A program made the translations under genes and the position numbers. A DNA stretch of 50,269 bases from a virus, in IMG/VR virus record IMGVR_UViG_3300020158_000005, positions 64,001-114,269 of that record. One strand, written 5' to 3'. Positions 3,942 through 50,269 of the stretch are shown in pieces. Below the pieces are notes generated by a model. The model was given only the letters and a program-made list of their open reading frames with translations, did not search any database and was not told where the DNA came from. Position 1 is the first letter of the stretch; the number at the start of each line of letters is the position of its first letter.

Positions 3942-6179
3942 ATGTCATATTTCACACAAGTTAGTTATTCAGATACAGGTTCTTTAGATGCGTTCTCAAG
4001 ATTAAGAACATCTAATCCTGAAACTTTATTTGCTGTTCAATCTCAATATGATACCAATCCTATAGAGATGGAAGGAGGATTTATAGGTACAGGAACTGCT
4101 GCTCCAACTTATAGCACTTCTACAAGAATGGTTGCATTGACAGCTACTGCTGGTACAGGAAGTGTATTTTATCAATCCTATCAATATAGTTCATATCAAC
4201 CAGGTAAAGCATTAAAACATGGAGAACCTGTTTTAACTGTTAATGGGTGGGTTAACATTGAAGATATAAAACTTGGAGATACTATCTTTGATGGACTAGG
4301 TAAAGAAACTAAAGTTATAGGTGTTTTTCCACAAGGAGAAAGAAAAATCTATAGAATCACTTTTGATGATGGTACTCATGTAGATTGTGATGGAGAACAT
4401 CTTTGGAAAACCATTGTAAGATGGGAAGGTAAAGCAGGTCAAGAAAGAGTATTAACTACTAATCAAATGTTAGACGAACATGGGGAAGTATCATCATCTT
4501 ATAACAGATGGAGAATACCTGCATCACCAGTACTTGAAATAACTGAAAAACCTGTTCCTATAGATGCTTATACATTAGGTGCTATTTTAGGAGATGGCAG
4601 TATAGATAAAAAATCTAGTTTTGTTCAATTTACTACAGCAGATTTAGAGATACTTTCTTATTTAAAGTGTGATATTAGTAAGTACGAGGCTAAGTATCAA
4701 TATGGGTTATTAGGTTTAGCAGAAAGTATTAGAACTTTAAAATTAGATAATACTAATTTTTTAACTAAATTTGTTCCTAACGAATATTTATATAACTCAA
4801 AAGAGATTAGATTAGCAATTTTACAGGGACTGATGGATACAGATGGTACTGTAGATAAAGTAGATGGCACTACTGAATACAACTCAGCCAGTAAACAATT
4901 AGCGGAAGATGTTGCATTTTTAGTTCGTTCATTAGGTGGGCAAGCAAAAATAAAAATAAAAGAAGCTAGTTATAAGAATGAAGATGGGGATAAGGTTAAA
5001 TGTTCTGACAGTTATAGAGTAAGAGTAATAATGCCTATTTGTCCATTTAAACTAGAGAGAAAATCATTCTATTGGAAGCCTAGAACTAGAATTTCTTTTG
5101 ATAGATATATTCATTCTATTAAAGAGCTTGGGGATTACCAAGCAACTTGTATAAGAGTAGAATCAGAAGACCATACATTCTTAACTAGAAATAATATAGT
5201 TACTCACAATAGTCAATTTATAGCTTTAACAGGTGTAGTAGGTACAGGTGTTGCAGGAGCTGTAGTTGATTATGGATATGGTGATAGTTTGAATGGTATA
5301 TTTTTAAGACAAAGTGGAACTACTATGCAAGTAGTACAAAGAAGTAATACTTCAGGAGCTGTAGTAGAAACAGTTATATCTCAATCTGCTTGGAATTTAG
5401 ATAAAATGGATGGTACAGGTAACTCAGGAATCACTTTTGATGTTACAAAAGCATTTATTCTTATAATGGATTTACAATTCCTTGGAATGGGTAGAGTAAG
5501 ATTTGGATTTGATATAAATGGAGTAGTATATTATTTTCATCAAATATTTAATGCTAACGTACTTGCTGTACCTTATATGCAACAAGCTACACTTCCTATC
5601 AGTGTTACCTTGACTACTACTGCTACTATAGCTACTAAAACATGTTATTTTAAATGTGCTACAGTACAGTCTGAAGGTGGTAGTTTACAAAACTTTGGGT
5701 ATAACTTTGCTACCCCTGAAGGAACTGTAACTGCAGGTAATGGAGCTAGAACATCTTTATTAGCTCTTAGACCATTAACAACATTTAATGGAATTCCTAA
5801 TAGGTCTCAAATTATTCTTGGAAATCTAGCAATAGCTGTTACAGGAACATCTCCTATATTCTGGGAATTATGTACAGGTGCTGTTTATACAGTAGCTCCT
5901 ACATTTGCTAGTGTAAATGCTGCTAACTCTTCTACACAATATGGTACAGGTGGAACATTTGGTAATTTAACAACAGGTCAGGTAATAGCTTCAGGATATG
6001 TAACAGGTTCAGGAGCAGGAGCAGCAGGAGTATCAAGTCCTACTATTTCACTACATAATCCAATTGCTCTTAATAGAGCAGGTGCTGTAACAGCTTTAGG
6101 TACACTTAGTTTACTTGTATCAGGAATAGGAGGTAATAGTGCAACTAGAGCATCATTTAACTTTGCAGAAATACGTTGA
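3942..6179 (+). CDS. Virion structural protein interrupted by an intein
   Basis: The 745-aa precursor has three parts: an N-extein (residues 1-89), an intein (90-423) and a C-extein (424-745). Joining the exteins restores SYQPGK-SQFIALTG, a junction that resembles a family of beta-rich phage virion proteins with a conserved YQxGKSQ motif followed by W-N-x-D-K-x-D-G and G-x-GRVRFGF. Those last two motifs are also present here. The mature protein would be about 411 aa. Its neighbours are fibres on the same strand, so a tail or baseplate-adjacent structural role is likely. The extein family assignment is from memory of motif pattern, not a search. Confidence 0.7.
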   Translation: MSYFTQVSYSDTGSLDAFSRLRTSNPETLFAVQSQYDTNPIEMEGGFIGTGTAAPTYSTSTRMVALTATAGTGSVFYQSYQYSSYQPGKALKHGEPVLTVNGWVNIEDIKLGDTIFDGLGKETKVIGVFPQGERKIYRITFDDGTHVDCDGEHLWKTIVRWEGKAGQERVLTTNQMLDEHGEVSSSYNRWRIPASPVLEITEKPVPIDAYTLGAILGDGSIDKKSSFVQFTTADLEILSYLKCDISKYEAKYQYGLLGLAESIRTLKLDNTNFLTKFVPNEYLYNSKEIRLAILQGLMDTDGTVDKVDGTTEYNSASKQLAEDVAFLVRSLGGQAKIKIKEASYKNEDGDKVKCSDSYRVRVIMPICPFKLERKSFYWKPRTRISFDRYIHSIKELGDYQATCIRVESEDHTFLTRNNIVTHNSQFIALTGVVGTGVAGAVVDYGYGDSLNGIFLRQSGTTMQVVQRSNTSGAVVETVISQSAWNLDKMDGTGNSGITFDVTKAFILIMDLQFLGMGRVRFGFDINGVVYYFHQIFNANVLAVPYMQQATLPISVTLTTTATIATKTCYFKCATVQSEGGSLQNFGYNFATPEGTVTAGNGARTSLLALRPLTTFNGIPNRSQIILGNLAIAVTGTSPIFWELCTGAVYTVAPTFASVNAANSSTQYGTGGTFGNLTTGQVIASGYVTGSGAGAAGVSSPTISLHNPIALNRAGAVTALGTLSLLVSGIGGNSATRASFNFAEIR
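4209..5210 (+). mobile_element. Intein with LAGLIDADG endonuclease domain (Ala1 type)
   Basis: This intein covers residues 90-423 of the structural protein. The splicing block A starts at Ala-Leu-Lys-His-Gly-Glu-Pro-Val, so the first residue is Ala rather than Cys or Ser. Block B is visible as DGTHVDCDGEHLW. Two dodecapeptide endonuclease motifs are present: LGAILGDGS (about residue 210) and LAILQGLMDTDG (about 289). The end reads HTFLTRNNIVTHN followed by Ser+1, a canonical His-Asn/Ser C-junction. Ala1 inteins are known to splice by direct attack of the +1 nucleophile on the N-junction. The endonuclease motifs keep their acidic residues, so it may be active. Confidence 0.88.
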
Positions 6180-14459: not shown

Positions 14460-14825
14460 TTATATTTGTTCAGATAAGCTGTCCCCCTGTTTTATGTTAC
14501 TTCTTTTATCCATTTCCCTTGCGAAATCTATCCACTCTTGATATTTATCTGGTATTATACCATTATGTCTATTCGAGTGACAATCCCCACACACAAGAAG
14601 AATATTCCAAGTTTTAAAAGCTATATCTTTACGATGAGCTTTTTCTATTAAATGGTCCCAATAGATGGTTTTATTTTCCCCTACAAGGGGTGTGTCGCAT
14701 ATAAGACACCTTCTATTTTTAGGTTCTATCCTATCCCATAAACTTTGGAACCATTCGTGTAACTCTCTTGTGAATTCTTTTTTAGCTTGTAACCTCACCC
14801 CTGAGCTTTTTCTTTTTGTAAGCAT
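14460..14825 (-). CDS. HNH-like endonuclease
   Basis: Two CxxC knuckles frame the nuclease core: CLICDTPL at about residue 40 and CGDCHSNRHNG at about 79. Between them lies the catalytic-type DHLIEKAHRKD (Asp-His). Asn and His of the third motif are in WNILLVC and HSNRH. The protein is 121 aa. Its start lies inside the preceding gene by 44 bases and its stop touches the tad2 start. It could process phage DNA (recombination, packaging) or be a degenerate homing nuclease. There are no NUMOD repeats to support the latter. Confidence 0.7.
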   Translation of the reverse strand: MLTKRKSSGVRLQAKKEFTRELHEWFQSLWDRIEPKNRRCLICDTPLVGENKTIYWDHLIEKAHRKDIAFKTWNILLVCGDCHSNRHNGIIPDKYQEWIDFAREMDKRSNIKQGDSLSEQI

Positions 14826-18268: not shown

Positions 18269-21200
18269 TTATAATCTATCCTGAATTGAACAAGAATTTC
18301 CACTGCAGGCAATGGAAGCATAATCGCTAACATCTTTATATTCAGGCTTAGTAAGAATCTTTGAAAGGTCTACTTCTTTAAATTGTTTATCAATGGTTTC
18401 CCATTTATGCAGAATATGCACATCTTTTAAACAATATACCATATTATCTATGTTATTCTTAAAATAGTTCTTAGCAAATTTCTTAGCTCTATCAATCCAA
18501 TATTTCTTCAATAACACTTGTTCTCTTGTTCCTGCAATAGGTTCCGTTTTGTCCTTTACAGATTTACAAGCTTGCCAAAGATTACCATTAAAATAATGTA
18601 ACCCATCTACAATAAGTCCCGAAGCAAATAAAGCTCCTGTACCATATTTAGCAATAATTTCTTCTAATGTAACTAGTTCTGTTAGGGGGGCTTGATTCCA
18701 CTCTCTACTACCAAAGTCACTTAAGAAAGAAATAGCTGTAAAAGCATCTTTATTATCCCAAATATAGTCAGCACATTTTTCCTTATCTCCTTCTCCTAAC
18801 ACTACTGTACAGGATACATTATGATTAATACCTCTATATCCACATAATTCAGGAACAGTTCCTGGCATTACCCAGTTTTCTTGTACTAATTTAATGTATT
18901 CTAGATGTTTTACACCCAGTACATCTTTCTTTAATAAGGCATCTTTATTATTCGCTACAGGAACATATACAACATAATCAGTTTTACTGTCACTATGTAC
19001 ACTTTCCTCTATCATATAAGGTCTATTTTCGGCTAACCACTTAGCTACGGTGTTTTCTTTGTTAATTTGCATCACTCTAAAATAGTTTCTAGCTTCTTCA
19101 GCAGAAATACCACCTACAGTCATAGCAATAACACTAGAATTACCTCCAGGTTTAACACAAGTAGTACGAGCAGCTTGATTGATTCCTATCATATCAGCTA
19201 CTATTTTGTTCGTATTCACTACTAATGCAGCACCTTCTCTTAGCCATTCTGGGTTAAATAGCTTAGGATTATTCATCCAACCTATTACAGAAATTCCTAA
19301 TAAAGCTTCTTTCTCAAAGATTTTTTCACTCACCTCTCCTAAATAAGGGAAAGACGTATAACCTGCTTGACAAGTTCCTAATATAGCAGAATGAACACAA
19401 GCTTTCAAAAATAACTCTTTTGTAGTACATTTTTCAGCTACAATTTCATTTAAATTACATTGCTTAGTTAAAACATTATTAAATACTCCTTGGTGTAATT
19501 CTGTTTCTTCAAAACAATATGAGTTATGTAAACCTGGGAGTAACTCTATAGTATCTATAATTTGTACTTTTCCTTTTTTAGTTGGTTCTTCTTTTGATAA
19601 CTCTCCTTTTGAACACCATAGCTCGGAACAGTCTGAAATTTGTAAATACCATATATCTTTATTTCTAATAGCATAGTTAGTTTTTACTCCTTTTTCTTGC
19701 ATTAAATTAACAGAAGAATCTATCCCTATTTTTGTTAGCAACAACTGGCAATCTCTAATTTTACTTTCTTCCCCATAAATTCTCAGCTTGCCATTATAAG
19801 TAATTGTACCGTCAGTATCTACCCACCCAGCAATAAAATTAATAATACTCTGTTTATTCCAAGTAAACACTTTAGATGGTAAACCTTCTTCATATTTTAA
19901 AGAAACCGAAAAATCTCTATCTAATTTATCAAAAGTTACATTATAATAATCTCCTGATTTTGTGGTGTTTAACACTTCACTTTTTTTACCACATATAAAA
20001 GGGAAGTCTAAATGAAAATTAGATTTATAAACAGAGGCAAAAGGTAGTCTTGATTTACCATTTTGATAATTTCTACACGTACCGTCACCTAATAGAAAAC
20101 CATAATCGTAAGCATATTCTTCTAAGACACCATCAGTATATATAATATTAGATTTAGGTACTGAAACTTTATATTTTTCAGTATTATTCAATAATTCAGA
20201 TAGTTTTAACTCTCTGTAGTTTTCTTCAAATCTATTTTTAACCAAAAACTTATGATTTTCTGTACAATCAAGATAGGACCCATCTGAAAAACCCACTCTA
20301 TATAGATTTCTATTAACACCTGTTAATACAGGCTTAACTTTTGACCATTTAACCCCATTCCAAATCTCTATTTCTTCCTTATTTTCCGCAACTTCTCCAA
20401 TAACTCTAATTCCATCTCTAGTTATAAGTTTTGTGTTATATTCAACACATCCCTGTACTCCAAATAAATCTTCATTAACCTTTGTAAACTCTTGAATATC
20501 ATCATAATGTATTTTACTTAAATCCCCATCATAAAGAATAGGTAGTTTACTAATTTCAAAACAAGGATTGAACATATCAAACCAAGAGTTAGCAAATACG
20601 AATCCAATATCATTTTGTCCACCATTTAGATTTACAAGATAATCAAACTGTTCTTTTGTTACTAAATTACGTATTAATATAACGCTATTATTGGTTCTTT
20701 CTCTTTGTTTGTTTTCAGAATACCAATTCCCTGTTTTAGCTAATATCATTTCCTCGTCATTAGGGTCTACGATGAAATCCAAAGCAGCTCTTCTCACGCC
20801 ACCACTAAGTACAGCATTAGACAAATGGCAAATAACATCTCCAACTACAATAGGTCTTAATTCATTTCCTTCTGTAATCATCCAATTATCTAACACTTGC
20901 TCTATTTTTTCAAGAGCATTTTTAAGGGGTTCATAACCAGGGGCTTTAAATCCCCCAGAGATAAATGTACCTTTTTCACGTATACCGCTACCATCGAACT
21001 TAATCTTATACCCTGTATATTCAGGAAAAGGGGCTTTATCTACAAAATAAGAAGACATTAATACACCTGCTGCATCTGCCCATCCTTCAATACTATCTTC
21101 AATTACAAATGTTTTTGTACCTAATAATCTAGGCTGAATCTTTGAAATATTCTTAACAAAAGGAATTAATAAACCTACACCTACTCCACAACCATTTAAA

Positions 21201-21523
21201 GCTAGATAGAACACTTCTTGAAAAACTCTGTTTCTTGAAGCATGCGTAGAAGTACAATTGTACATCCTAAGATTACTCCTTTCTATTTGTTTATATCTAT
21301 ACTGTAAATTCCTTTGTGAAGCTAAAATAAGCATATCACCTAAAGAGTCTTCTACTTCGTTTAGTAATACATTTAATTCTTCATTTTGATACTTTATTCT
21401 ATGCCCATTAATAATGTCCTTAGAAGCATCTTTCCATGTTTCATACCTACCTTCATCCATCCATTTAAAATAATCTGAATGTAATTTTAGGTCAGATAGA
21501 AACTTTTTTCCTTTGTTTGTCAT
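18269..21523 (-). CDS. nrdJ: Class II (B12-dependent) ribonucleotide reductase with intein
   Basis: Without the intein (residues 359-688) the enzyme is 754 aa, close to the monomeric Lactobacillus leichmannii enzyme. Visible catalytic residues are Cys90 (RMYNC, first redox Cys), Cys321 in FNPCFEI (thiyl-radical Cys and Glu), Cys689 in CNLNEI (second redox Cys) and the C-terminal pair CSGNSC (1073/1078) that re-reduces the site. It converts ribonucleotides to deoxyribonucleotides using adenosylcobalamin and needs no oxygen. A consensus promoter lies 36 bases upstream and a terminator follows, so it is a single-gene unit. No cobalamin riboswitch fits in the short leader. Whether it prefers di- or triphosphates cannot be read here. 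Confidence 0.93.
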   Translation of the reverse strand: MTNKGKKFLSDLKLHSDYFKWMDEGRYETWKDASKDIINGHRIKYQNEELNVLLNEVEDSLGDMLILASQRNLQYRYKQIERSNLRMYNCTSTHASRNRVFQEVFYLALNGCGVGVGLLIPFVKNISKIQPRLLGTKTFVIEDSIEGWADAAGVLMSSYFVDKAPFPEYTGYKIKFDGSGIREKGTFISGGFKAPGYEPLKNALEKIEQVLDNWMITEGNELRPIVVGDVICHLSNAVLSGGVRRAALDFIVDPNDEEMILAKTGNWYSENKQRERTNNSVILIRNLVTKEQFDYLVNLNGGQNDIGFVFANSWFDMFNPCFEISKLPILYDGDLSKIHYDDIQEFTKVNEDLFGVQGCVEYNTKLITRDGIRVIGEVAENKEEIEIWNGVKWSKVKPVLTGVNRNLYRVGFSDGSYLDCTENHKFLVKNRFEENYRELKLSELLNNTEKYKVSVPKSNIIYTDGVLEEYAYDYGFLLGDGTCRNYQNGKSRLPFASVYKSNFHLDFPFICGKKSEVLNTTKSGDYYNVTFDKLDRDFSVSLKYEEGLPSKVFTWNKQSIINFIAGWVDTDGTITYNGKLRIYGEESKIRDCQLLLTKIGIDSSVNLMQEKGVKTNYAIRNKDIWYLQISDCSELWCSKGELSKEEPTKKGKVQIIDTIELLPGLHNSYCFEETELHQGVFNNVLTKQCNLNEIVAEKCTTKELFLKACVHSAILGTCQAGYTSFPYLGEVSEKIFEKEALLGISVIGWMNNPKLFNPEWLREGAALVVNTNKIVADMIGINQAARTTCVKPGGNSSVIAMTVGGISAEEARNYFRVMQINKENTVAKWLAENRPYMIEESVHSDSKTDYVVYVPVANNKDALLKKDVLGVKHLEYIKLVQENWVMPGTVPELCGYRGINHNVSCTVVLGEGDKEKCADYIWDNKDAFTAISFLSDFGSREWNQAPLTELVTLEEIIAKYGTGALFASGLIVDGLHYFNGNLWQACKSVKDKTEPIAGTREQVLLKKYWIDRAKKFAKNYFKNNIDNMVYCLKDVHILHKWETIDKQFKEVDLSKILTKPEYKDVSDYASIACSGNSCSIQDRL
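19460..20449 (-). mobile_element. Intein in ribonucleotide reductase, Gln C-terminus
   Basis: The intein covers residues 359-688. Block A is CVEYNTKLITRDG, block B contains FSDGSYLDCTENHKF, and endonuclease motifs are YGFLLGDGTC and FIAGWVDTDGT. The C-terminal part reads SYCFEETELHQGVFNNVLTKQ followed by Cys+1. The last residue is Gln, not Asn, and the penultimate is Lys, not His. Gln-terminated inteins are known. The +1 Cys is also a catalytic Cys of the host enzyme, so only a spliced product should be active. Confidence 0.85.
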
Positions 21524-23616: not shown

Positions 23617-23660
23617 ATGGTTAATGACTTATCTCGGATATTATTTTTTAAATTTATCAT
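23595..23660 (-). other. 5' end of the phosphoesterase, with possible recoding site
   Basis: This 21-codon frame encodes MINLKNNIRDKSLTIWHISDT and overlaps the end of the GIY-YIG gene. The last codon ACG (23600-23598) is followed by TGA, and a second ACG starts five bases downstream (23595), leading directly into CAT ACT TTC of the main frame. An 11-bp inverted repeat (arms 23640-23630 and 23610-23600) lies immediately before. Identical take-off and landing codons, a stop and a hairpin are also features of the T4 gene 60 bypass. A simple mutation or assembly error would look similar. Confidence 0.5.
23600..23640. repeat. 11-bp inverted repeat at the phosphoesterase start
   Basis: TATCCGAGATA and TATCTCGGATA are perfect inverted arms with 19 bases between them. 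In RNA they would form a hairpin whose 3' arm ends at the ACG before the TGA. Confidence 0.8.
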
Positions 23661-24519
23661 AAATTATATTTTTAAGTTCTAAATTAAAACATTCAGTATG
23701 TCCCTCAAATTTACTAATAGGCTTATATTTTAATGTTTTAAATCCTTTTAAATAATACTGTTCTATATTAGATATTTCTGTAGAATTACTTTCATATTCT
23801 AACAATATATTATATTTATAATTTTTTACACCATGATATCTTTTTTTAATATTTACACGGGTAATTCCTATTTTTATAAATCTCTCAGTCTCATTAAAAA
23901 ATTCTAACATATAAAATATACATTGTTTGTTTTTTGATTTCTCTATCCAATGTGTTCTACTAAAACTTGAATTATCTTTTTTACATATAGGACATCCTCT
24001 ACCTAATAAATGACTTTCAATAAGAGAGTTAAATATACCATGTTTTTCACAAAATACATCTATTTTCTTTTTACTATTTGTATAATCAAAAACAGGGTAT
24101 GAATATTTATTATTATGTTTTTTATTAGCTTTAAAACAAAATAAGTCATAAGGTTTAGTACATGATACTATAGATACAGGATGACCTTGTAACAAATCAT
24201 AACATTGAGGTTCATATTGAAATCCATTATTATCTTGAACTAATAGTTTACTTTTCATACCCTTATAATTAATAAGAGTAAGGTTAGGAAAAATAGTATG
24301 TATCTTTCCTTGAATATATTTATATTTATCAACAATACTATAACAATTTGTTTTGTGCTTAAAAACTCTTCCAGGCATACGTTTAAACTCATTACCCTCT
24401 TTATCTTTAAATATAAGAGGAGTAGATAAGTTTTTAAAATAAACTATTTCATAGTCAGGATATAACTCTTCAAATTGTTTAAAGAATAATAAAGTCCTAT
24501 CTTTAAAGGAAATACTCAT
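23641..24519 (-). CDS. GIY-YIG-type homing endonuclease (292 aa)
   Basis: The N-terminal half has repeated short DNA-binding-like units. Residues ~135-180 read HNNKYSYPVFDYTNSKKKIDVF-type sequence and end in RGCPICKK, a DUF723-like zinc module. The C-terminal catalytic part contains IFYMLEFFNETERFIKIGITR (degenerate GIY and K-I-G), KKRYHG with the conserved Arg, and NIEQYYLKGF with the conserved Glu. Such free-standing genes home into a cognate locus. Its start overlaps the 59-aa zinc protein (ATGA) and its end overlaps the 5' end of the phosphoesterase, consistent with insertion between the two. The base composition is more AT-rich than its neighbours. Confidence 0.72.
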   Translation of the reverse strand: MSISFKDRTLLFFKQFEELYPDYEIVYFKNLSTPLIFKDKEGNEFKRMPGRVFKHKTNCYSIVDKYKYIQGKIHTIFPNLTLINYKGMKSKLLVQDNNGFQYEPQCYDLLQGHPVSIVSCTKPYDLFCFKANKKHNNKYSYPVFDYTNSKKKIDVFCEKHGIFNSLIESHLLGRGCPICKKDNSSFSRTHWIEKSKNKQCIFYMLEFFNETERFIKIGITRVNIKKRYHGVKNYKYNILLEYESNSTEISNIEQYYLKGFKTLKYKPISKFEGHTECFNLELKNIIYDKFKK

Positions 24520-27356: not shown

Positions 27357-27529
27357 AGACTAATATTTTTATCAATTTTATTAAGGCAATATTGCTTTAA
27401 TTGTTCCCCTAAAGTAATAAGTCCTACACCTATAATACCATTAATCTCCACTATATTATCAATTACATCAGCTAGCGTGAACTTTTCCTCTAGAATCAGC
27501 TTCTTTAGCTCTTCTTTTTCCAGTTTCAT
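27353..27529 (-). CDS. Unknown 58-aa protein
   Basis: A frame from ATG 27529, starting MKLEKEELKKLILEEKFTLA, with an Ile/Gly-rich hydrophobic middle (IVEINGIIGVGLITLG). It overlaps the 3' end of the HNH gene by 62 bases in another frame and the next gene by four. It might be a small membrane-associated peptide. Confidence 0.42.
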   Translation of the reverse strand: MKLEKEELKKLILEEKFTLADVIDNIVEINGIIGVGLITLGEQLKQYCLNKIDKNISL

Positions 27530-27968
27530 TTTTATCTATTTTACTTTTATTGTCATGGCAATTGTCACACAACACTTGTAATCCATTTTCTTCACAAAAT
27601 AATCTTTCTACAAACCCTGGTAGGTCTGCAAAACTATTTAAACTCCCTGCTGGGATAATGTGGTCTACAGAAACTTGCTTATCAGGGAAATAGTTTTTAC
27701 AAATATTACACTGAAATTCAACACGTTGTCTTTTGTTTGGACCTACATACACTCGTTTGGCTTTATTCTTACAAGATTGTATAGGTTTCCATACAATAGT
27801 GCGTCTTCTTAAGCTACTACGAATAAAACTGAAGAAAGCAGAGGTAGACATTGTTCCGTTATTATACGGTTTGTCTACCAATGACTTCCTTACAGCCTTC
27901 TTTCCCTTAGGTTTTACTCCTGAGACATCACTTATTTCTTGTTTGTTTTTTGGTCTTTTCTTCCTCAT
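27468..27968 (-). CDS. HNH endonuclease (166 aa)
   Basis: A basic N-terminal region (RKKRPKNKQ...) precedes a zinc-stabilised HNH core: CNICKNYFPDKQVSVDHIIPAGSL, then FVERLFCEENGLQVLCDNCHDNKSK. Both CxxC knuckles, Asp-His and the final His are intact. This form, with FVERLFCEENGLQVLC, is typical of phage-encoded HNH nucleases near replication genes rather than of NUMOD-containing homing enzymes. It lies directly downstream of the DNA polymerase. Confidence 0.8.
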   Translation of the reverse strand: MRKKRPKNKQEISDVSGVKPKGKKAVRKSLVDKPYNNGTMSTSAFFSFIRSSLRRRTIVWKPIQSCKNKAKRVYVGPNKRQRVEFQCNICKNYFPDKQVSVDHIIPAGSLNSFADLPGFVERLFCEENGLQVLCDNCHDNKSKIDKNETGKRRAKEADSRGKVHAS

Positions 27969-29934: not shown

Positions 29935-31140
29935 TCATGCAACTCCATCCCTTAGGTCTTCTGCGGTCCTCCGTCTCGTTTCAAAATCCTGCACTATTTC
30001 TGCATCAGAATAATCTGCCTCATAATCATCTTCCTCATATTCATCATCTTCTTCTGTTTGAAGAGCTTCTGAAACAAATGAAGGGTCTTCAAATTTAGCT
30101 TTAAATTGGGAAATAATTTGAGAAATTTCTTTCTTTCTGCCTATAATAGATTTTTCTTTAAGTTCATTTCCTCCTATATAACAATAATCCTTCATAAATT
30201 CAAAAGGAACATAATATATTTGAGCTTTTGTAGCTAGAAGATGTGGTTCCACATATTTCTTATACATTGTTCTAAAAGCTTTGTGAGGATAAGAAGTACC
30301 TTGTAAATCTTTATCTACTAGAAATATCACTTTAGTCATATCTATAGTGCCATGTAATAATATATGTAGTTTTTGATACATATAATTTTCTGGTAATACT
30401 ATAGGAAGTACAACAGGTAATATTTCAGCAGATGTATTTCTAAATAAAGAATAACTACCCATACTAGCAGAGAAAGTACGCATATTTATTGTAGTTAATC
30501 CTTCTTTGAAAACATTTTCTGTTATATTATCATAACGATGTATCCAACCACTATTTTCTAATAAAAGTGGATTTTCCTGTCCAAGATATGCATTTACATA
30601 TGTATCTACAGAACCTTTTATAGAATCATGCCCACTACCATCTGTAATTAAGTTATAAATAAAATAACTTAATGGATTTTCTTTATCCTTTAAAGTAGCT
30701 TTAAACATATCTACATGTTCTCCTGTTAAAGACCTTCCTTGTCTACTATCTATATATTTTTCATTTATATAGTGGTATCTTTTATTAAAAAGTTGGGGAG
30801 CCACAGATAAATAAACTAAGGGAATAAACTCAGAAAAAGGACACATAAAATACCTACTAGCACTACTTAGTCCTCTTGAGTTAGTACCTAATTTAAAAAT
30901 ACTTGCAGGAGCTTCAGCTCCATTATCTTTTCCTTCCCAAAAAGGAGGAATGATTTTAGGTTTTACAGTACGTTTCCTTTTTACAGGTGCTGTTGTAGAT
31001 ATAGTAATAGAAGGATTATCAGTAGTTTCTGCAGGAATTTCTTGCATTCTTGCTGCATAGTCCCATGCGGCATCTATAGTCATAGTTTCTCCAATACTAG
31101 CTTGTGGCAACGATTCCGTTCTCACTTGTAATTGTCTCAT
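29935..31140 (-). CDS. Unknown acidic-tailed protein of the ubiquitin-like cluster
   Basis: The 401-aa protein (or 382 aa from the ATG at 31083, just after the E1 stop) has a polar, basic N-terminal linker (APVKRKRTVKPKIIPP), a central alpha/beta domain (~80-345; pieces EILPVVLPIVLPENY and TKVIFLVDKDLQG) and an extremely acidic tail (TEEDDEYEEDDYEADYSD). I find no catalytic motif. It overlaps the E1-like gene by 44 bases or lies 13 bases after it, and is followed by the polymerase. Position makes it a candidate target, adaptor or additional factor of the Ub-like system. The assignment to that system is inference. Confidence 0.6.
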   Translation of the reverse strand: MRQLQVRTESLPQASIGETMTIDAAWDYAARMQEIPAETTDNPSITISTTAPVKRKRTVKPKIIPPFWEGKDNGAEAPASIFKLGTNSRGLSSASRYFMCPFSEFIPLVYLSVAPQLFNKRYHYINEKYIDSRQGRSLTGEHVDMFKATLKDKENPLSYFIYNLITDGSGHDSIKGSVDTYVNAYLGQENPLLLENSGWIHRYDNITENVFKEGLTTINMRTFSASMGSYSLFRNTSAEILPVVLPIVLPENYMYQKLHILLHGTIDMTKVIFLVDKDLQGTSYPHKAFRTMYKKYVEPHLLATKAQIYYVPFEFMKDYCYIGGNELKEKSIIGRKKEISQIISQFKAKFEDPSFVSEALQTEEDDEYEEDDYEADYSDAEIVQDFETRRRTAEDLRDGVA

Positions 31141-31870
31141 TTTGATTTAATTTAATTTGTTCTACAGATTCAGTTTTATAATCTAAGAATGGTCCAAAGA
31201 ACCTTTGATGGAATGGAACTTCTTTAAATTCAGCACCCATTTTCTTGTTTGCCAACCAGTTACAGAAGGTAGCTGTAATAAAAGTTGCAATACCCATAGC
31301 TACAAAAGTAGTTTGTTTCATGGTACAATCAAGTTCTTCTATCTCACTATCATCAAATAACCAATTTTTATATTCTTCAATTTGTTCAGGATGGTCCCCT
31401 TGAACAACAAACACTTCACATAATTCTCCTGCCATTCTACCGTCTATAAATAAACAATCTTCATATTCAGCAGGGTCTTTAGCAAGTGTATGATTCTCCC
31501 ATTCTAAGAAAATTTCTTTACGGGCTTTCATATTATCTAAACCAGTAATACAAATATCCATCATACCAAAGTCAAGAGAATACATTTCTTTTATAGGAGT
31601 AAGATTATTAACGCAACCAAATTGATTACAAATTTCTGCTACAGCACTCACTTTACTCTTACCAATATCAGATTGTCTATACATTTGACCACCTTGTACA
31701 TTAGTTTCATCTACATTATCTCCATCAATAATATAAATTTCATGCATAATTCTACTTAAAGATAGGCAAGTCCAGCTTCCAATACCGCCAGCTCCTATCA
31801 TCATTATTTCTTTTTGCTGGTCAGCCCAATCAAATCCCGACCATCTTTTACCTTGAATTAATTTGTTCAT
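31097..31870 (-). CDS. ThiF/E1-like adenylating enzyme
   Basis: The 257-aa protein has an adenylation Rossmann core: MMIGAGGIGSW (residues 23-33, G-x-G-x-x-G), strand IYIIDGD (46-51) with the ribose-binding Asp, and the downstream ETNVQGGQMYRQSDIGKSK (Arg/Lys contacts to ATP). ICITGLDNMKARK (107-118) corresponds to the conserved D-N motif. Cys182 in LDCTMKQTTFVA is the best candidate for a thioester Cys. E1-like enzymes activate the C-terminus of a ubiquitin-like protein as an adenylate. Its neighbours are a JAB peptidase, an E2-like protein and two Ubls, so it is the activating enzyme of that set. Confidence 0.88.
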   Translation of the reverse strand: MNKLIQGKRWSGFDWADQQKEIMMIGAGGIGSWTCLSLSRIMHEIYIIDGDNVDETNVQGGQMYRQSDIGKSKVSAVAEICNQFGCVNNLTPIKEMYSLDFGMMDICITGLDNMKARKEIFLEWENHTLAKDPAEYEDCLFIDGRMAGELCEVFVVQGDHPEQIEEYKNWLFDDSEIEELDCTMKQTTFVAMGIATFITATFCNWLANKKMGAEFKEVPFHQRFFGPFLDYKTESVEQIKLNQNETITSENGIVATS

Positions 31871-31921: not shown

Positions 31922-32884
31922 TTAATCTACCATCACATGTCCTAATACAGTAGGTCCGTCACTTACAGCTTCTTCAGTTTCAGCTAATATCATATAAGTC
32001 AGTTCTTCCACAATTCCTTTGATAAGTCTATTGTAAGTGAAAGATTTTAAATGTTTCTCTAAAAGTTCTAACACTTGAATATAATCCCAAATACTTGCTT
32101 GTGGATACATAATTCCAAAATGCTCTTCAAAAGCTATGGAAAACTCAGCTAGATAGCTATCTAATTGTTTCTTAGTTTTAAGAAGATTATTCTTTTTAAT
32201 TAAGTTCTCTACAGGAGAATCTGGAGTCATTAAGTAGTTTTCTTCCACAAAAGAATTCAAAACACCATAAGCATCTTCTTTAGACATTAACAATGTCAAA
32301 GTGCTTTCTTGGGGTTTATATTTCTCATCTACATATTTTCTCCACTCTTCATCAGTCATATCCATGATGTCTTTATCTCTTTTTTGAGATTTAGTACCAT
32401 ATCCATAGTAGTCATCATCATTCAATCCTAATTCTCCTTGTTCCCATTTAGAATTCGTACTATCTTTGCCAGTATAGCTACTACCCATGCTCCCATATTT
32501 TCCACCATATCCACCATATACTCCATTATAAAATCCAGGATAGACAGGTTTAGCATCATCAATAGCTTTCTTAACAGCAGTGTAGCGAGCAGCAAAAGCT
32601 TCTTCTACAGGAACTACTGCATTTTCAAATTGTATTTTACAATCCATCACTACTAATACATCCTTAGATTTTTCTCCACCTAATACAAGGGGCTCAAATC
32701 CATCTAAATTATTGGCAAATTCCAGAGTAGTATCTGGTTTACCATTTCTTGTAGCTTTAAATGCTACTTTAGCTACGTATTCTCCTTTGAAATTTACTAT
32801 AAGCATAAGCAAATAGTTACTCAATACACCCCTATCTTCTAATTGTGACCAATCGGTTCCACTAAAGAAAGCACTCATAGAATG
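31922..32884 (-). CDS. JAB/JAMM peptidase, exon 2
   Basis: This exon begins with CAT TCT ATG, giving HSMSAFFSGTDWSQLED. Joined to exon 1 (HIHTH) it completes the metalloprotease motif H-x-H-x7-S-x2-D, with Ser129 and Asp132 of the joined protein. The next ~60 residues finish the JAB fold (YLLMLIVNFKGEYVAKVAF). The remainder is a Tyr/Gly-rich linker (YPGFYNGVYGGYGGKYGSM) and a long helical C-terminal domain absent from minimal JAB proteins. The joined protein is about 441 aa. Read alone from ATG 32878 this part would lack the zinc ligands. The protein would cleave or process Ubl conjugates or precursors. Confidence 0.85.
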   Translation of the reverse strand, partial: HSMSAFFSGTDWSQLEDRGVLSNYLLMLIVNFKGEYVAKVAFKATRNGKPDTTLEFANNLDGFEPLVLGGEKSKDVLVVMDCKIQFENAVVPVEEAFAARYTAVKKAIDDAKPVYPGFYNGVYGGYGGKYGSMGSSYTGKDSTNSKWEQGELGLNDDDYYGYGTKSQKRDKDIMDMTDEEWRKYVDEKYKPQESTLTLLMSKEDAYGVLNSFVEENYLMTPDSPVENLIKKNNLLKTKKQLDSYLAEFSIAFEEHFGIMYPQASIWDYIQVLELLEKHLKSFTYNRLIKGIVEELTYMILAETEEAVSDGPTVLGHVMVD

Positions 32885-32929
32885 CAGTTACGTTATTGGG
32901 AATTTTTTAATTATTTCCCACTTTATTTT

Positions 32930-32959
32930 TTGTTATTTAAAATTAATTATTTATATTTG
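32930..32959 (+). promoter_or_regulatory. Promoter of the intron-borne endonuclease
   Basis: TTG (32930-32932), 19 bases and TATATTTG (32952-32959) match the Bacteroidota consensus and are oriented toward the plus-strand endonuclease at 32980, opposite to the host gene. Confidence 0.75.
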
Positions 32960-32979
32960 CTCTCACCATAAAATAAATT

Positions 32980-33621
32980 ATGAAGAGACCTTTTCAAGGA
33001 AATATTAGATATTTCCAAAATTGTGATACCCCTATTAAAGCTTATTTTCTTGGTTTTATAGCTGCAGATGGTTGTCTATTAAGTAATGGAAAAAATTCCA
33101 TTTCTCTTTCAATAACATTATCTGAAGTAGATAGAAATCTTTTAAACAAGTTAAAAGAAGAAATAGGTTGTGAACATAGAATTTATAATATAAGAGGTAA
33201 AATGACACATAATAAAGACAAAGAAAAATATCATTGTCGTTTTCAATTGTGTAATAAACTACTTATTTCAGATTTAATGAGTTATGGATTCACAGAACGT
33301 AAATCTATAACTATGCCTAATATACTACAAAATATACCTAAAGAATTTAGAGATTCTTTTATTTTGGGATATTTTGATGGAGATGGTAGTATTTCTTACA
33401 ATATAGCAAGTAAACAACATGTTATCTCTTTTCGAGGAACAGAAGAATTTCTACAAAGTTTTGTAGAAACACTTCAGTTTGAAAAGTATAGGTTAATTAA
33501 AGATAAACAAAAGAATTGCTTTACTCTAACTGCTTGGCGTAAATCTGATATTCAAAAATTCAAACAAATATATAATAATAAAGAATTTTATTTAACTAGA
33601 AAATTTATTAAATTTCCTTAA
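32980..33621 (+). CDS. LAGLIDADG homing endonuclease inside the intron (antisense)
   Basis: The 213-aa protein has two LAGLIDADG motifs: IKAYFLGFIAADGCLL (~residues 17-32) and FILGYFDGDGSISY (~126-139), both with the metal-binding Asp. It is a single-chain homing enzyme that would cut the uninterrupted JAB gene and promote intron spread. It is the only rightward gene in the 14.2-50.3 kb block and has its own promoter. Intron-borne endonucleases are usually on the sense strand, so the orientation is unusual. Confidence 0.88.
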   Translation: MKRPFQGNIRYFQNCDTPIKAYFLGFIAADGCLLSNGKNSISLSITLSEVDRNLLNKLKEEIGCEHRIYNIRGKMTHNKDKEKYHCRFQLCNKLLISDLMSYGFTERKSITMPNILQNIPKEFRDSFILGYFDGDGSISYNIASKQHVISFRGTEEFLQSFVETLQFEKYRLIKDKQKNCFTLTAWRKSDIQKFKQIYNNKEFYLTRKFIKFP

Positions 33622-33836
33622 AAATCAATAAAGACCAGACTATATCATCTTCCTATTTCACTATAGGAAGTCGGGTTCTCGTGTTAGCTTCATCACCGTT
33701 CTGGTGGTATGCTATTAGTCGTTGCACCTTCATTCTATTCCTAGAAAGCTCGGCTCAGGATTGGAGCTTTTTAACTCTTTCCCTGAATTCTCCCAATTGT
33801 TAATATACATTACTGTATAAGAGCACCATTATGTCA

Positions 33837-34199
33837 ATGCGTGTGAATATGATGATTCTTTTGAGTTCCGTCCATTAATCCAGGATAAGCTTCATAAAGC
33901 TCAATAATATCGGCAGATTTAAATCCACCCTTATCTACTTCATATCCTGTAAATCCAGAAGTTCCAATATCTACTAAATAAATATCTTCACAGATGATAG
34001 TCCATTCATCTAAATCATTAATTGTTTTAATTTCGGAAGTGATAAGTTCACCACTCCATTCAATAGCTCCACACTGTTTGTGTAGATAATCAATTTGTTT
34101 TTTTAATTTCTCTGTAATAATCACTGTAGGTTTATTACTTAATTCTAGTCTATCCAAACACTGCTTGGTAACGTAGGGTTTTTGCACTTTGGTATCCAT
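33837..34199 (-). CDS. JAB/JAMM peptidase, exon 1
   Basis: Residues 1-121 hold the first half of the JAB fold: PTVIITEKLKKQIDYLHKQ, then IEWSGELI with the catalytic Glu47 and finally NHHIHTH with the zinc ligands His119 and His121. Without splicing the frame runs one codon further into a TGA (33836-33834). The start at 34199 lies inside the end of the E2-like gene by 50 bases. This is the only in-frame ATG before the fold starts. Homologues act as ubiquitin-like isopeptidases or precursor-processing enzymes. See exon 2 for the rest. Confidence 0.85.
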
Positions 34200-35346: not shown

Positions 35347-35820
35347 TTAACTACGCAATTTCTTAGCTTCAGCCAAAGCTGCTGCTAATTCTTCATCCAC
35401 TACAGGAGCTACTACCTCTGCAACAGCTATTGTAGCTCTAGGTGCTGTGAAGAAACTTTCTACACTGCTTGTTAGAGCTGCTTTTAAAGCTGCAGTCTCC
35501 TGAGCACTTGCTATACGAGCAGTTGCTTTAATTGTTGCTGCAATAGCAGTACCTACAGCATTAGCATCACTATCAGTGATACCTGCCTTATTCTTAGTAG
35601 CAATGATGAACACATTGAAATCTTCTGTAGGAAGAATGCTATCATCTCCTCTAAGAGTGATGTTACCTGGTTTTACAACCACTTCCACTCCATCACCACC
35701 ATTGTAAATACCTGCGAAAGCACTATTTGCTTTCAAATCTCCGAAGGTTACACCTGCGAAATCATTAATTCTTACTGCTGCATTTGTTTTAGCACTTGCT
35801 ACGATTACTTTTCTAGACAT
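35347..35820 (-). CDS. Ubiquitin-like protein, copy 1 (157 aa)
   Basis: After MSRKVIVASAKTNAA the core reads GVTFGDLKAN, then GVEVVVKPGNITLRGDDSIL and PTEDFNVFIIATKNKAG (to ~residue 78). The TFGDLK, LRGDDS-LP and DFNVF-ATKNKAG pattern is that of beta-grasp Ub-like proteins found with E1/E2/JAB genes. The following ~80 residues are Ala-rich helices ending AEAKKLRS. There is no C-terminal Gly-Gly, so if it is conjugated, either processing exposes another end or the mechanism differs. It is a paralogue of the next gene. Confidence 0.72.
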   Translation of the reverse strand: MSRKVIVASAKTNAAVRINDFAGVTFGDLKANSAFAGIYNGGDGVEVVVKPGNITLRGDDSILPTEDFNVFIIATKNKAGITDSDANAVGTAIAATIKATARIASAQETAALKAALTSSVESFFTAPRATIAVAEVVAPVVDEELAAALAEAKKLRS

Positions 35821-35891: not shown

Positions 35892-36338
35892 TTATAAACT
35901 CTTAGCTTCAGCTAGAGCTGCTCCCAATTCAATGCAATCTGCATTTCCACCACAATTATCTACTACAGGAATAGATTTTTTGTAACTCTCAATAAAACCA
36001 ATCAAAGCATCTCTAAGAGATGTTAAATTAGCTCCTACAATTTCATCAATTACTTCATTAATTGCTTCTTCAACTTCATAAGCAACATCAGAGCTATCCA
36101 ATCCTGCTTTGTTCTTTGTAGCTACTAAGAACACGTTAAAATCACCTACTGGCAATACACTATCATCACCACGTAAAGTTACGTTTCCTGGTTTAACGAT
36201 AGCTTCTACACCATCACCATTGCCATAAATCCCTGCAAAAATAGGGTCGGCTTTCAAATCACCGAAAGTTGTTCCACTGAATTCAGTACGTGCTGCTGCA
36301 TTAGTTTTTGCACTGGCAATAATTACTTTTCTAGACAT
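35892..36338 (-). CDS. Ubiquitin-like protein, copy 2 (148 aa)
   Basis: The first ~80 residues are closely related to copy 1 (MSRKVIIASAKTNAA, TFGDLKADPIFAGIYG, TLRGDDSVLPVGDFNVF). The C-terminal half differs: acidic helices (EVEEAINEVIDEIV) and a small Cys-containing element VVDNCGGNADCIELG before ALAEAKSL. The final ~8 residues are again like copy 1 (ALAEAK), which suggests a selected C-terminal peptide. As first gene of the cluster with a nearby promoter it should be the most abundant product. Confidence 0.72.
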   Translation of the reverse strand: MSRKVIIASAKTNAAARTEFSGTTFGDLKADPIFAGIYGNGDGVEAIVKPGNVTLRGDDSVLPVGDFNVFLVATKNKAGLDSSDVAYEVEEAINEVIDEIVGANLTSLRDALIGFIESYKKSIPVVDNCGGNADCIELGAALAEAKSL

Positions 36339-45379: not shown

Positions 45380-45712
45380 TTATTTTATATTTGTTAAAGG
45401 ATAAGAGTTGATAATAGATGATGCAGAAATAACTACTGTATCACTACCACATTCATATTCATCTAATAAGTCTTTATGGTCTGTATATTCTTCACTATTA
45501 ATAACTAGAAGTTTAGCTGAATCTTTAGCAGCTTCTAATGCAGCTTGTACATGTAGTTTAGCAAACTCTATCATTGCTTCTTTACAATCTGAGAAGTTGA
45601 TAACTACTTCTCCTTCTGTATCAGAATGAGCTACAAACCATGTAGCAAATCCTCTATCATTTATGTGTTCTTGTGCTGTAGGTAAATGTCCATCCTTTGT
45701 ATGTTTTTCCAT
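45380..45712 (-). CDS. Phage protein with N-terminus altered by an HNH insertion (110 aa)
   Basis: The C-terminal ~70 residues (CKEAMIEFAKLHVQAALEAA, ending IINSYPLTNIK) belong to a type common in Bacteroidota phages and prophages. The first ~18 codons coincide with the 3' end of the HNH gene in another frame. The intact-type start IPTAE is found upstream of the HNH gene as a 12-codon remnant (MNIPTAEFDNIK, 46190-46152). The present start is thus probably supplied by the inserted element. Confidence 0.6.
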   Translation of the reverse strand: MEKHTKDGHLPTAQEHINDRGFATWFVAHSDTEGEVVINFSDCKEAMIEFAKLHVQAALEAAKDSAKLLVINSEEYTDHKDLLDEYECGSDTVVISASSIINSYPLTNIK

Positions 45713-46136
45713 TATATCTTCTTTTTAAAAATGCAATTATGTTTGATTTATGTAAATTTAAACCTTCAGCAGCCAGTCTTATTGAGTCAAAAGATAATAC
45801 TTGTTCTTCTTTTGTACATATAATCGGCTTACATACTTTTTTAGTTCGTTGTTTATCTTTCATATCCTTGGTAAAGGACTTACCAAAGAAATTATTTTTA
45901 TCCCCTATTTGTGATAGAGATATTTTTTCACTTCTTTCTTTGGTAAAGTCATATTTAACATGACAAGAACGACATAATTCTGTAAAACACGTTATGTCTT
46001 TACTATACTCACAACCTTGTAATAAAGCCCAATCATATACTTTTGCTGTAGTTGTACCGCAGTGTGAGCATATATTCTTTTTTGGGTAGTTTTCTCTTAG
46101 CCATTTATGCAAGGCACTATATTCTTTTTTATTCAT
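45657..46136 (-). CDS. HNH homing endonuclease with NUMOD modules
   Basis: The nuclease part has ICSHCGTTTAKVYDW, LCRSCHVKYD (zinc knuckles) and Lys/Arg-rich linker SQIGDKNNFFGKSF (NUMOD3-like). A NUMOD1-like helix-turn-helix follows: VLSFDSIRLAAEGLNLHKSNI, ending RYNGKTYKGWTFTY. I chose ATG 46136 because a consensus promoter ends five bases before it. An ATG five codons upstream (46151) would overlap that promoter. The element is bounded by 11-bp direct repeats. Confidence 0.85.
   Translation of the reverse strand: MNKKEYSALHKWLRENYPKKNICSHCGTTTAKVYDWALLQGCEYSKDITCFTELCRSCHVKYDFTKERSEKISLSQIGDKNNFFGKSFTKDMKDKQRTKKVCKPIICTKEEQVLSFDSIRLAAEGLNLHKSNIIAFLKRRYNGKTYKGWTFTYSTRTHK
45674..45684. repeat. 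Direct repeat flanking the HNH element (right copy in transcription order)
   Basis: TGCTGTAGGTA (plus strand), identical to 46176-46186. It lies inside the overlap of the HNH gene end and the 110-aa gene start. Confidence 0.75.
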
Positions 46137-46140
46137 AATA

Positions 46141-46171
46141 CAAAAATACAATAACTACTTAATATTATCAA
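46141..46171 (-). promoter_or_regulatory. Promoter of the HNH homing gene
   Basis: Minus-strand TTG (46171-46169), 20 bases and TATTTTTG (46148-46141) match TTG-N20-TAnnTTTG. The ATG at 46136 follows after four bases, so the message would be leaderless. Confidence 0.7.
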
Positions 46172-49339: not shown

Positions 49340-49708
49340 TTAAGCTTGTTCTACTTCTGCTGTCAGAGCTTCTAATTCAGATTCCAAGAATGCAATTTTT
49401 GCATTATGTATTTCTAAATCTTGTTCAGCTTTTGTTACAGCATTTTTAGCATCTAACAATGCACGTACATAAGCATCTCTATTAGTAATAGGTTGTCCAT
49501 TATTAATACGTGCTTCAGCTTGACGTTCTTGTGCTTCTGTCACTGCATCTTCTTTAGCAATAACATCCCCTTTAAGAGAATTTACTTGTGTGCGAATTGC
49601 ACTGTCTGCTTGTCTGAATGCTTTTTCAGCTTTAGCTGTTGCATCATCACCTTGGATTTTAGCCACAAAACTCTTTACGAAACTCTTAACTAATTGACTA
49701 TTGTTCAT
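49340..49708 (-). CDS. Coiled-coil protein (122 aa)
   Basis: Apart from the first ~20 residues (MNNSQLVKSFVKSFVAKIQG) the protein is one long Ala/Glu/Gln heptad region, typical of a dimeric or trimeric coiled coil. It has no other motif. The upstream homing gene ends inside its first codons (11-base overlap). Confidence 0.5.
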   Translation of the reverse strand: MNNSQLVKSFVKSFVAKIQGDDATAKAEKAFRQADSAIRTQVNSLKGDVIAKEDAVTEAQERQAEARINNGQPITNRDAYVRALLDAKNAVTKAEQDLEIHNAKIAFLESELEALTAEVEQA

Positions 49709-50269
49709 GTTTTTGATTTTTAATTTTTAAAATTGGTTTGTTTTTACTTTCTTTTTGAATACGACTTCTTAAAGTTTGTTCTTTTAAATTATAAAATTTT
49801 GCAGCTTCTCTAATACTAGAGAACTCTTGTTTTGTTTCTATATCTATTACAGCTTTTGCATTAGGAGCAACTTTACCATACATATGATTCTTCTTACCTT
49901 TTTGATTTTCAGAAAATTCTGGTTTTTTAATACCCCAAAAAGGATGTTTCTCTCCAGTTATTTGGGGGTACTTCTTACCTTTATTCCATGAAGTATGCCC
50001 TTTTTGTGAATTGGACATTTTTTCTAATGTTTCTTTAGAACACGTACCTGTTTTTCCTTTATTCCAAGATTTACCATACTTTCTTCCTGTAAATGCTTTA
50101 GACATATTTTCTCTAGTTTGTGTAGAAAATACTCCTTTTTTAGAATTTGTTTTAGTTAAAATACAATTTAATCCTTTTTCAGTTACTTCATAAAATTCTT
50201 GCCAGTATCTTTCTCTATCATTTAATAGTTCAATAGAACATTCTTCTACTATTTCAAATATATGGTTAG
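49698..50269 (-). CDS. GIY-YIG homing endonuclease with NUMOD3/NUMOD1, start outside window
   Basis: The frame is open to the right window edge, adding about 54 residues before the ATG at 50105. That part (IELLNDRERYWQEFYEV, then GLNCILTKTNSKKG) is the end of a GIY-YIG nuclease with its catalytic Glu. Next come at least four NUMOD3 repeats (SWNKGKTG, SWNKGKKYP, HPFWGIKK, NHMYGK) and a NUMOD1-type helix-turn-helix (IREAAKFYNLKEQTLRSRI). The gene is thus 3' complete and 5' truncated by the window. Confidence 0.85.
   Translation of the reverse strand, partial: NHIFEIVEECSIELLNDRERYWQEFYEVTEKGLNCILTKTNSKKGVFSTQTRENMSKAFTGRKYGKSWNKGKTGTCSKETLEKMSNSQKGHTSWNKGKKYPQITGEKHPFWGIKKPEFSENQKGKKNHMYGKVAPNAKAVIDIETKQEFSSIREAAKFYNLKEQTLRSRIQKESKNKPILKIKNQKHEQ

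Follow-up and report, generated by a model that had tools for sequence, protein, structure and literature searches.

The window, i.e. the whole stretch of 50,269 nucleotides analysed here (positions 64001-114269 of the 114,269-base virus record IMGVR_UViG_3300020158_000005), carries on its minus strand a JAB/JAMM gene, which specifies a zinc protease of the kind that removes ubiquitin; a 952-nt insert interrupts the gene within its zinc-binding motif. A splice model, together with alignment to the intact JABs of crAss-like and Flavobacterium phages, places exon 1 at 33837..34199 (codons 1-121, with EWSG and both of the zinc His residues, ...HIHTH) and exon 2 at 31922..32884, which begins with CAT TCT ATG and holds the S-x2-D part of the motif. 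The insert (32885..33836, minus strand) lies after the second zinc His codon, the CAT of codon 121, and parts the two His ligands from the Ser and the Asp; it is assigned to the group I introns based on a match to RF00028, the restored reading frame and the same architecture in seven related loci. Exon 1 ends with the T of CAT at 33837 and the intron reads TGACAT...AACTG, with its terminal G at 32885. Since unspliced exon 1 meets TGA at the intron start straight after ...HIHTH, an active enzyme would need splicing, and it follows from the sequence that JAB activity should be confined to the spliced product.

Excision of 33836-32885 yields a single 441-aa open reading frame with HTHHSMSAFFSGTD, i.e. 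H-x-H-x7-S-x2-D, in which the part encoded by exon 2 opens with HSMSAFFSGTD and the motif of the spliced protein reads E...H-T-H-x7-S-G-T-D. When in-frame junction pairs within 12 nt were compared, the reported pair alone, of those giving back a JAMM-like pattern, had an exon-terminal U, an intron-terminal G and both of the ligand His residues in register. The split of the motif after its second His had been proposed in an earlier reading made from the sequence only, which made the proposal depend on boundaries that restore the JAMM motif; these junctions do restore it, the boundaries proved to be exact, and the related loci with and without the intron described below provide their strongest support. 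The residues E47, H119, H121, S129 and D132 are invariant among the ten aligned JABs, in agreement with the E...H-x-H-x7-S-x2-D signature of JAMM/Prok-JAB (PF14464), and all ten match Prok-JAB (best 1.7e-7). The window protein itself scores 15.8 bits against Prok-JAB, below the curated score of 25 and over residues 118-151 only, and its membership of the family is therefore based on the motif and on its relatives. A single-sequence JAB query of the viral contigs gave no matches and an alignment-based query gave 453 relatives; a JAB profile search of the PDB sequences found nothing.

The JAB gene belongs to a minus-strand cassette, the members of which in other phages are an uncharacterised protein, JAB/JAMM, a ThiF/E1-like enzyme and a uracil-DNA glycosylase. 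The ThiF/E1-like adenylating enzyme is encoded downstream of JAB at 31097..31870 (minus strand; Pfam ThiF, 1.2e-16). Matches to the PRTRC system fell below the curated cut-offs (PRTRC_A 16.4 of 101.8 bits, PRTRC_ThiF 42.7 of 144.75 bits). Upstream of the cassette, tandem paralogous small proteins (MSRKVI.ASAKTNAA...; 35347-35820 and 35892-36338, minus strand) are candidate ubiquitin-like partners, for which no family match was obtained in the libraries tried.

The minus strand from 33836 to 32885 is a group I intron. RF00028 matches the minus strand at 33863-33616 with 61.7 bits (gathering threshold 50; E 5.6e-15), a match which was missed by a fast Rfam scan of the whole window and lies above the cut-off in the search of the whole record; a covariance-model scan was among the checks that the sequence-only reading had called for. 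The catalytic core, from the 5' end of the intron to the 3' strand of P7 (33630..33836, minus strand), scores 166 bits with R1, a covariance model built from the eight related introns described below, the window being itself a row of the training set. The P7 strands GACTA (33716..33720) and TAGTC (33638..33642) are located on the minus strand, as had been noticed earlier, and are invariant in the eight introns; due to this invariance P7 is uninformative by covariation. The core helices P2-P5 and P8 show 41 two-sided compensatory cells across the eight introns, versus 14.0 +/- 2.9 in shuffles, the number falling to 5-13 when the partners are shifted by 1-3 columns; 91.6% of the core-helix cells are paired. 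The internal guide sequence GUGC (33823..33826, minus strand) pairs with the exon GCAU in P1, with a U.G pair at the splice site, and AAUG (33827..33830, minus strand) pairs with CAUU of the 3' exon in P10. These helices have 4 bp each in the window and are weak when taken alone (null fraction 0.05); they are longer, with 6-7 bp, in Flavobacterium phage Fpv1 and in the contig L017. Thus, a P3-P8 core with the P7 pairing, a terminal U of the 5' exon paired to the guide G, a terminal G and P10 are all found, and the P1 pairing and terminal G seen earlier are present, the former being short. A terminator-like hairpin at 33752-33768 was dropped as it is not conserved by eye in Fpv1. A second and weak RF00028 match lies outside the window (record positions 58298-58471, minus strand; 20.4 bits, below the cut-off).

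The strand opposite to the intron carries, in the part that separates the core from the 3' splice site (the P9 side), an intact gene of 213 codons at 32980..33621 (plus strand), the product of which matches Pfam LAGLIDADG_3 (1.2e-10), so that the opposite-strand homing endonuclease gene (HEG) recognised earlier is borne out. The protein has the LAGLIDADG motif in duplicate, and each copy supplies one catalytic acidic residue (D30 and D135, both invariant in 18 relatives); its AlphaFold model (pLDDT 92.7) shows the pseudo-symmetric, two-fold LAGLIDADG arrangement, and the best solved structures matched by Foldseek are bI3 maturase, I-HjeMI and I-AniI, with I-SceI lower. The HEG frames of Fpv1, L099, L101, L102 and L103 extend 24-33 nt into the core on the opposite strand and end in a QTIS peptide, encoded by the complement of the P7 3' strand. 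The frame in the window stops 8 nt short of the modelled core and lacks the C-terminal Q-x-Q-T-I-S tail found in most relatives; the window enzyme could be impaired, judging from this missing tail.

A promoter-like TTG-N19-TATATTTG, a pattern which we take to be that of the Bacteroidota primary sigma factor, is located at 32930..32959 (plus strand), 20 nt upstream of the HEG start, where the sequence-only reading had placed the gene's own promoter; its shuffle probability is 0.0085. TTG-N19/20-TANNTTTG also occurs 19-26 nt upstream of the HEG start codon in Fpv1 (where a HEG-strand transcript would be expected to begin just past TACTTTTG), L015, L016 and L017, i.e. five of the eight family members carry the motif, with per-sequence shuffle probabilities of 0.004-0.027. 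Among the eight, it is missing ahead of the HEG in L013, L014 and L098; in L014 and L098 its place is taken by purine-rich, Shine-Dalgarno-like sequences, and the differing promoter region perhaps reflects other hosts.

The closest named relatives of the HEG are found in Fpv1 and its kin (39% identical). Fpv1 has the same exon-intron-exon arrangement of the same gene with an antisense endonuclease, annotated as an 'endonuclease' opposite in strand to two hypothetical proteins with no intron described; a short stretch of it matches RF00028 with 43.4 bits (E 5.6e-10), whereas an Rfam search of six relatives together gave no match, probably owing to its filters. The near-identical phages Fpv3 and FpV4 carry a single uninterrupted JAB gene, i.e. 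an empty site, and joining the Fpv1 exons at their junctions gives the same exon structure as in the intronless gene of Fpv3. Aligned with Fpv3, Fpv1 is unchanged over the 808 bp that precede the insertion site. On the 3' side, the first 42 bp contain 15 differences, which change one amino acid, and the two sequences then agree fully between positions 43 and 2000 (about 1950 bp). This diverged 42-bp tract is, on comparison of the two sequences, interpreted as a co-conversion footprint of homing, since such a trace is expected from repair off a diverged intron-bearing donor. The evidence for the empty site and homing comes from Fpv1, Fpv3 and FpV4 rather than from the window's own phage; a search of the phage collection at megablast sensitivity gave no DNA relative of the window region.

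The family examined consists of the window, Fpv1 and six IMG/VR contigs, L098 and L013-L017, which were the best relatives in an alignment search of the viral contigs (the handles L099-L103 denote the five contigs L013-L017 when taken with longer flanks). In the six contigs the HEG runs against the flanking genes, which are JAB exons separated at this same motif. Removal of the junction-bounded sequence restores the JAMM motif in seven loci (the window, Fpv1, L013, L015, L016, L017 and, with two introns taken out, L014/L100); L098 shows x8 spacing in place of x7, with a G-terminal intron. In L014/L100 the motif is cut twice, first by the antisense-HEG intron and then by another group I intron, whose ORF is on the sense strand, and between the two lies a micro-exon of 22 nt, TCACATAATGTAATGAGTGCGT (L100 3204-3225); the three joined exons read HSHNVMSAFWSAAD. 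In all eight cases the intron immediately follows a CAU His codon of H-x-H-x-H; the three insertion sites, spaced 6 nt from one to the next, are GH|IHSH in Fpv1, IH|(S/T)H in L013, L014, L015 and L017, and HSH| in the window, L016 and L098, the Fpv1 insertion being 12 nt upstream of that in the window. The guide sequence starts with GUG in every family intron, and the zinc His codons of 54 intact JABs are CAT in 44 and 45 cases. In L102 (the same contig as L016), the ThiF/E1-like gene beside the split JAB (1016-2255) is likewise interrupted, in its conserved DEVNLARN...QMY region, by a group I intron whose LAGLIDADG gene runs in the sense direction.

Of the 96 loci searched with R1, only the eight JAB loci gave a core opposite to the HEG; every other core found adjacent to an HEG lies on the HEG's own strand. 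Three Patescibacteria loci with a minus-strand core near a plus-strand HEG (L309, L333 and L301) were rejected, as they are surrounded by tRNA genes and the core is located next to the HEG instead of enclosing it; L002, with an HEG opposed to its neighbours, was left uncounted, no group I core having been found. A DNA-pattern search for the core matched only introns without this HEG. The eight antisense HEGs form one side of a branch in a tree of 49 HEG proteins (SH-aLRT 94), on which orientation takes one change versus 7.6 in shuffles. The intron is optional, being absent from most JAB relatives, and on the JAB tree its presence takes six changes for six intron rows, with the interrupted genes scattered among intact ones. 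Because the antisense HEGs cluster and the interrupted JAB genes are scattered, the trees are taken to indicate that the antisense orientation arose once within the sample and that the element was later transferred among diverged JAB genes; the sample was picked by similarity, and further antisense lineages may exist.

Taken together, these data are best explained by a mobile, self-excising group I intron with a separately transcribed antisense LAGLIDADG HEG that homes into JAB, a reading to which we give a probability of roughly 0.9. The minus-strand ribozyme would remove itself from the JAB pre-mRNA and so restore the JAMM zinc motif, while the endonuclease would be made from its own plus-strand transcript, initiated at a host-type promoter inside the 3' tail of the intron. 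The enzyme would then cut intronless JAB alleles at the conserved stretch of His codons, and repair of the cut allele would copy the intron in. The target would stay cuttable because protein function holds the His stretch constant. A lineage in which the HEG turned antisense once would have spread among diverged phages, in each case landing right after a CAU His codon of H-x-H-x-H, and would form a family of mobile elements specialised on the zinc motif. Antisense placement could free the HEG from the timing of the host gene and keep ribosomes off the folding intron.

Control of the splicing or expression of JAB by the antisense HEG transcript, as a timed switch for the ubiquitin-like system, is improbable. 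The promoter motif in five of the eight members could yield RNA complementary to the intron, and the HEG frame overlaps the opposite-strand core in five of the eight, but the window frame ends before the core, the intron is missing from most relatives, and its distribution and the co-conversion fit a parasite. That antisense RNA hinders splicing of the JAB intron, as suggested earlier, is speculation. In a specific and equally doubtful form, HEG transcription from the host-type promoter would transiently block intron folding or JAB transcription, and the JAMM and E1-linked cassette would come on when transcription by the host polymerase fades; if this were true, a selfish element would double as a timer of the phage ubiquitin-like system. 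The optional intron, the empty sites, the co-conversion and the scattered host genes argue for a mobile element and not for a switch kept for the benefit of the phage. It is likewise unlikely that the HEG product is now chiefly a maturase aiding intron folding, with its endonuclease role secondary or lost; the top Foldseek match is a maturase and I-AniI is bifunctional, but both catalytic Asp residues are invariant and the Fpv1 tract implies recent homing. That a free-standing HEG broke the JAB gene, leaving no working intron and a dead JAB in this phage, is hardly credible. The HEG does have its own promoter motif, opposes the JAB gene and has many free-standing HEG-like counterparts in this record, but the JAB strand bears a complete group I core supported by covariation, exact junctions restore the motif in seven loci with Fpv1 matching the Fpv3 exon structure, and conserved residues are kept in both exons.

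This phage has a heavy load of mobile endonucleases. A ribonucleotide-reductase-like protein (18269-21523, minus strand) contains an intein bearing a LAGLIDADG domain, and a phage protein at 3942-6179 (plus strand) has an intein-like insert with a LAGLIDADG/Hom_end domain. HEG-like ORFs with T5orf172, HNH, I-HmuI-like NUMOD and NUMOD3 matches, some below the curated cut-off, occur at 23641-24519, 27468-27968, 45657-46151, 49698-50105 and 14460-14825 (all on the minus strand).

The mobile antisense-HEG intron can be compared with several known systems. The presence of group I introns inside conserved catalytic motifs is to be expected. Introns of this group with an antisense HEG are well established in the nuclear rDNA of Didymium, where the gene encodes a His-Cys enzyme (PMC9548176, PMC3073962). 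The earlier statement that the arrangement departs from the usual sense-encoded HEGs holds for phages and bacteria as far as found, but nuclear rDNA group I introns do include antisense HEGs. Like the phage intron, Dsq.L2066/I-DsqI and Dir.S956-2/I-DirII have an HEG opposite to the intron strand, expressed from a separate promoter as is proposed for the phage gene (PMC9548176, PMC3073962), in Dsq.L2066 also on the P9 side, and relatives exist with either HEG orientation. The Didymium introns differ in involving eukaryotic rDNA, a His-Cys box, RNA polymerase II and spliceosomal introns, whereas the phage intron lies in a protein gene and has a LAGLIDADG enzyme and, in five of eight members, the Bacteroidota-type motif; it therefore falls outside the Didymium type, defined by a His-Cys box in nuclear rDNA. 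The sense LAGLIDADG introns of crAss-like phages cr6_1 and cr114_1 and of the Prevotella Lak phages share the HEG family (about 30-40% identity) and related cores, but have the HEG on the intron's own strand and other host genes. In cr6_1 and cr114_1 (L006 and L007) the intron HEGs are open only when TAG is read as a residue. The crAss-like phages are similar in their dense self-splicing elements in phages of Bacteroidota (PMC7886860), although the MCP example described there has co-directed frames; JAB, ThiF and metalloprotease go unmentioned in that text. A review covering group I introns in bacteria and phages (PMC3984707) contains none of the words antisense, opposite and orientation. No antisense HEG in a phage or bacterial group I intron was found in the open literature, and since most subscription papers lie outside this coverage, no priority is claimed.

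The intron described here provides a phage counterpart to the slime-mould rDNA introns with an antisense endonuclease. The expression of antisense HEGs has been called an unsolved question (PMC9548176), to which a host-type promoter inside the intron is a candidate answer. In this region the intron is nearly all that distinguishes Fpv1 from Fpv3, which makes homing directly testable. Such introns are missed by automatic annotation, and the JAB genes of these phages therefore look truncated. The element tracks a catalytic motif, its eight introns lying after CAU His codons in JAB genes of two types.
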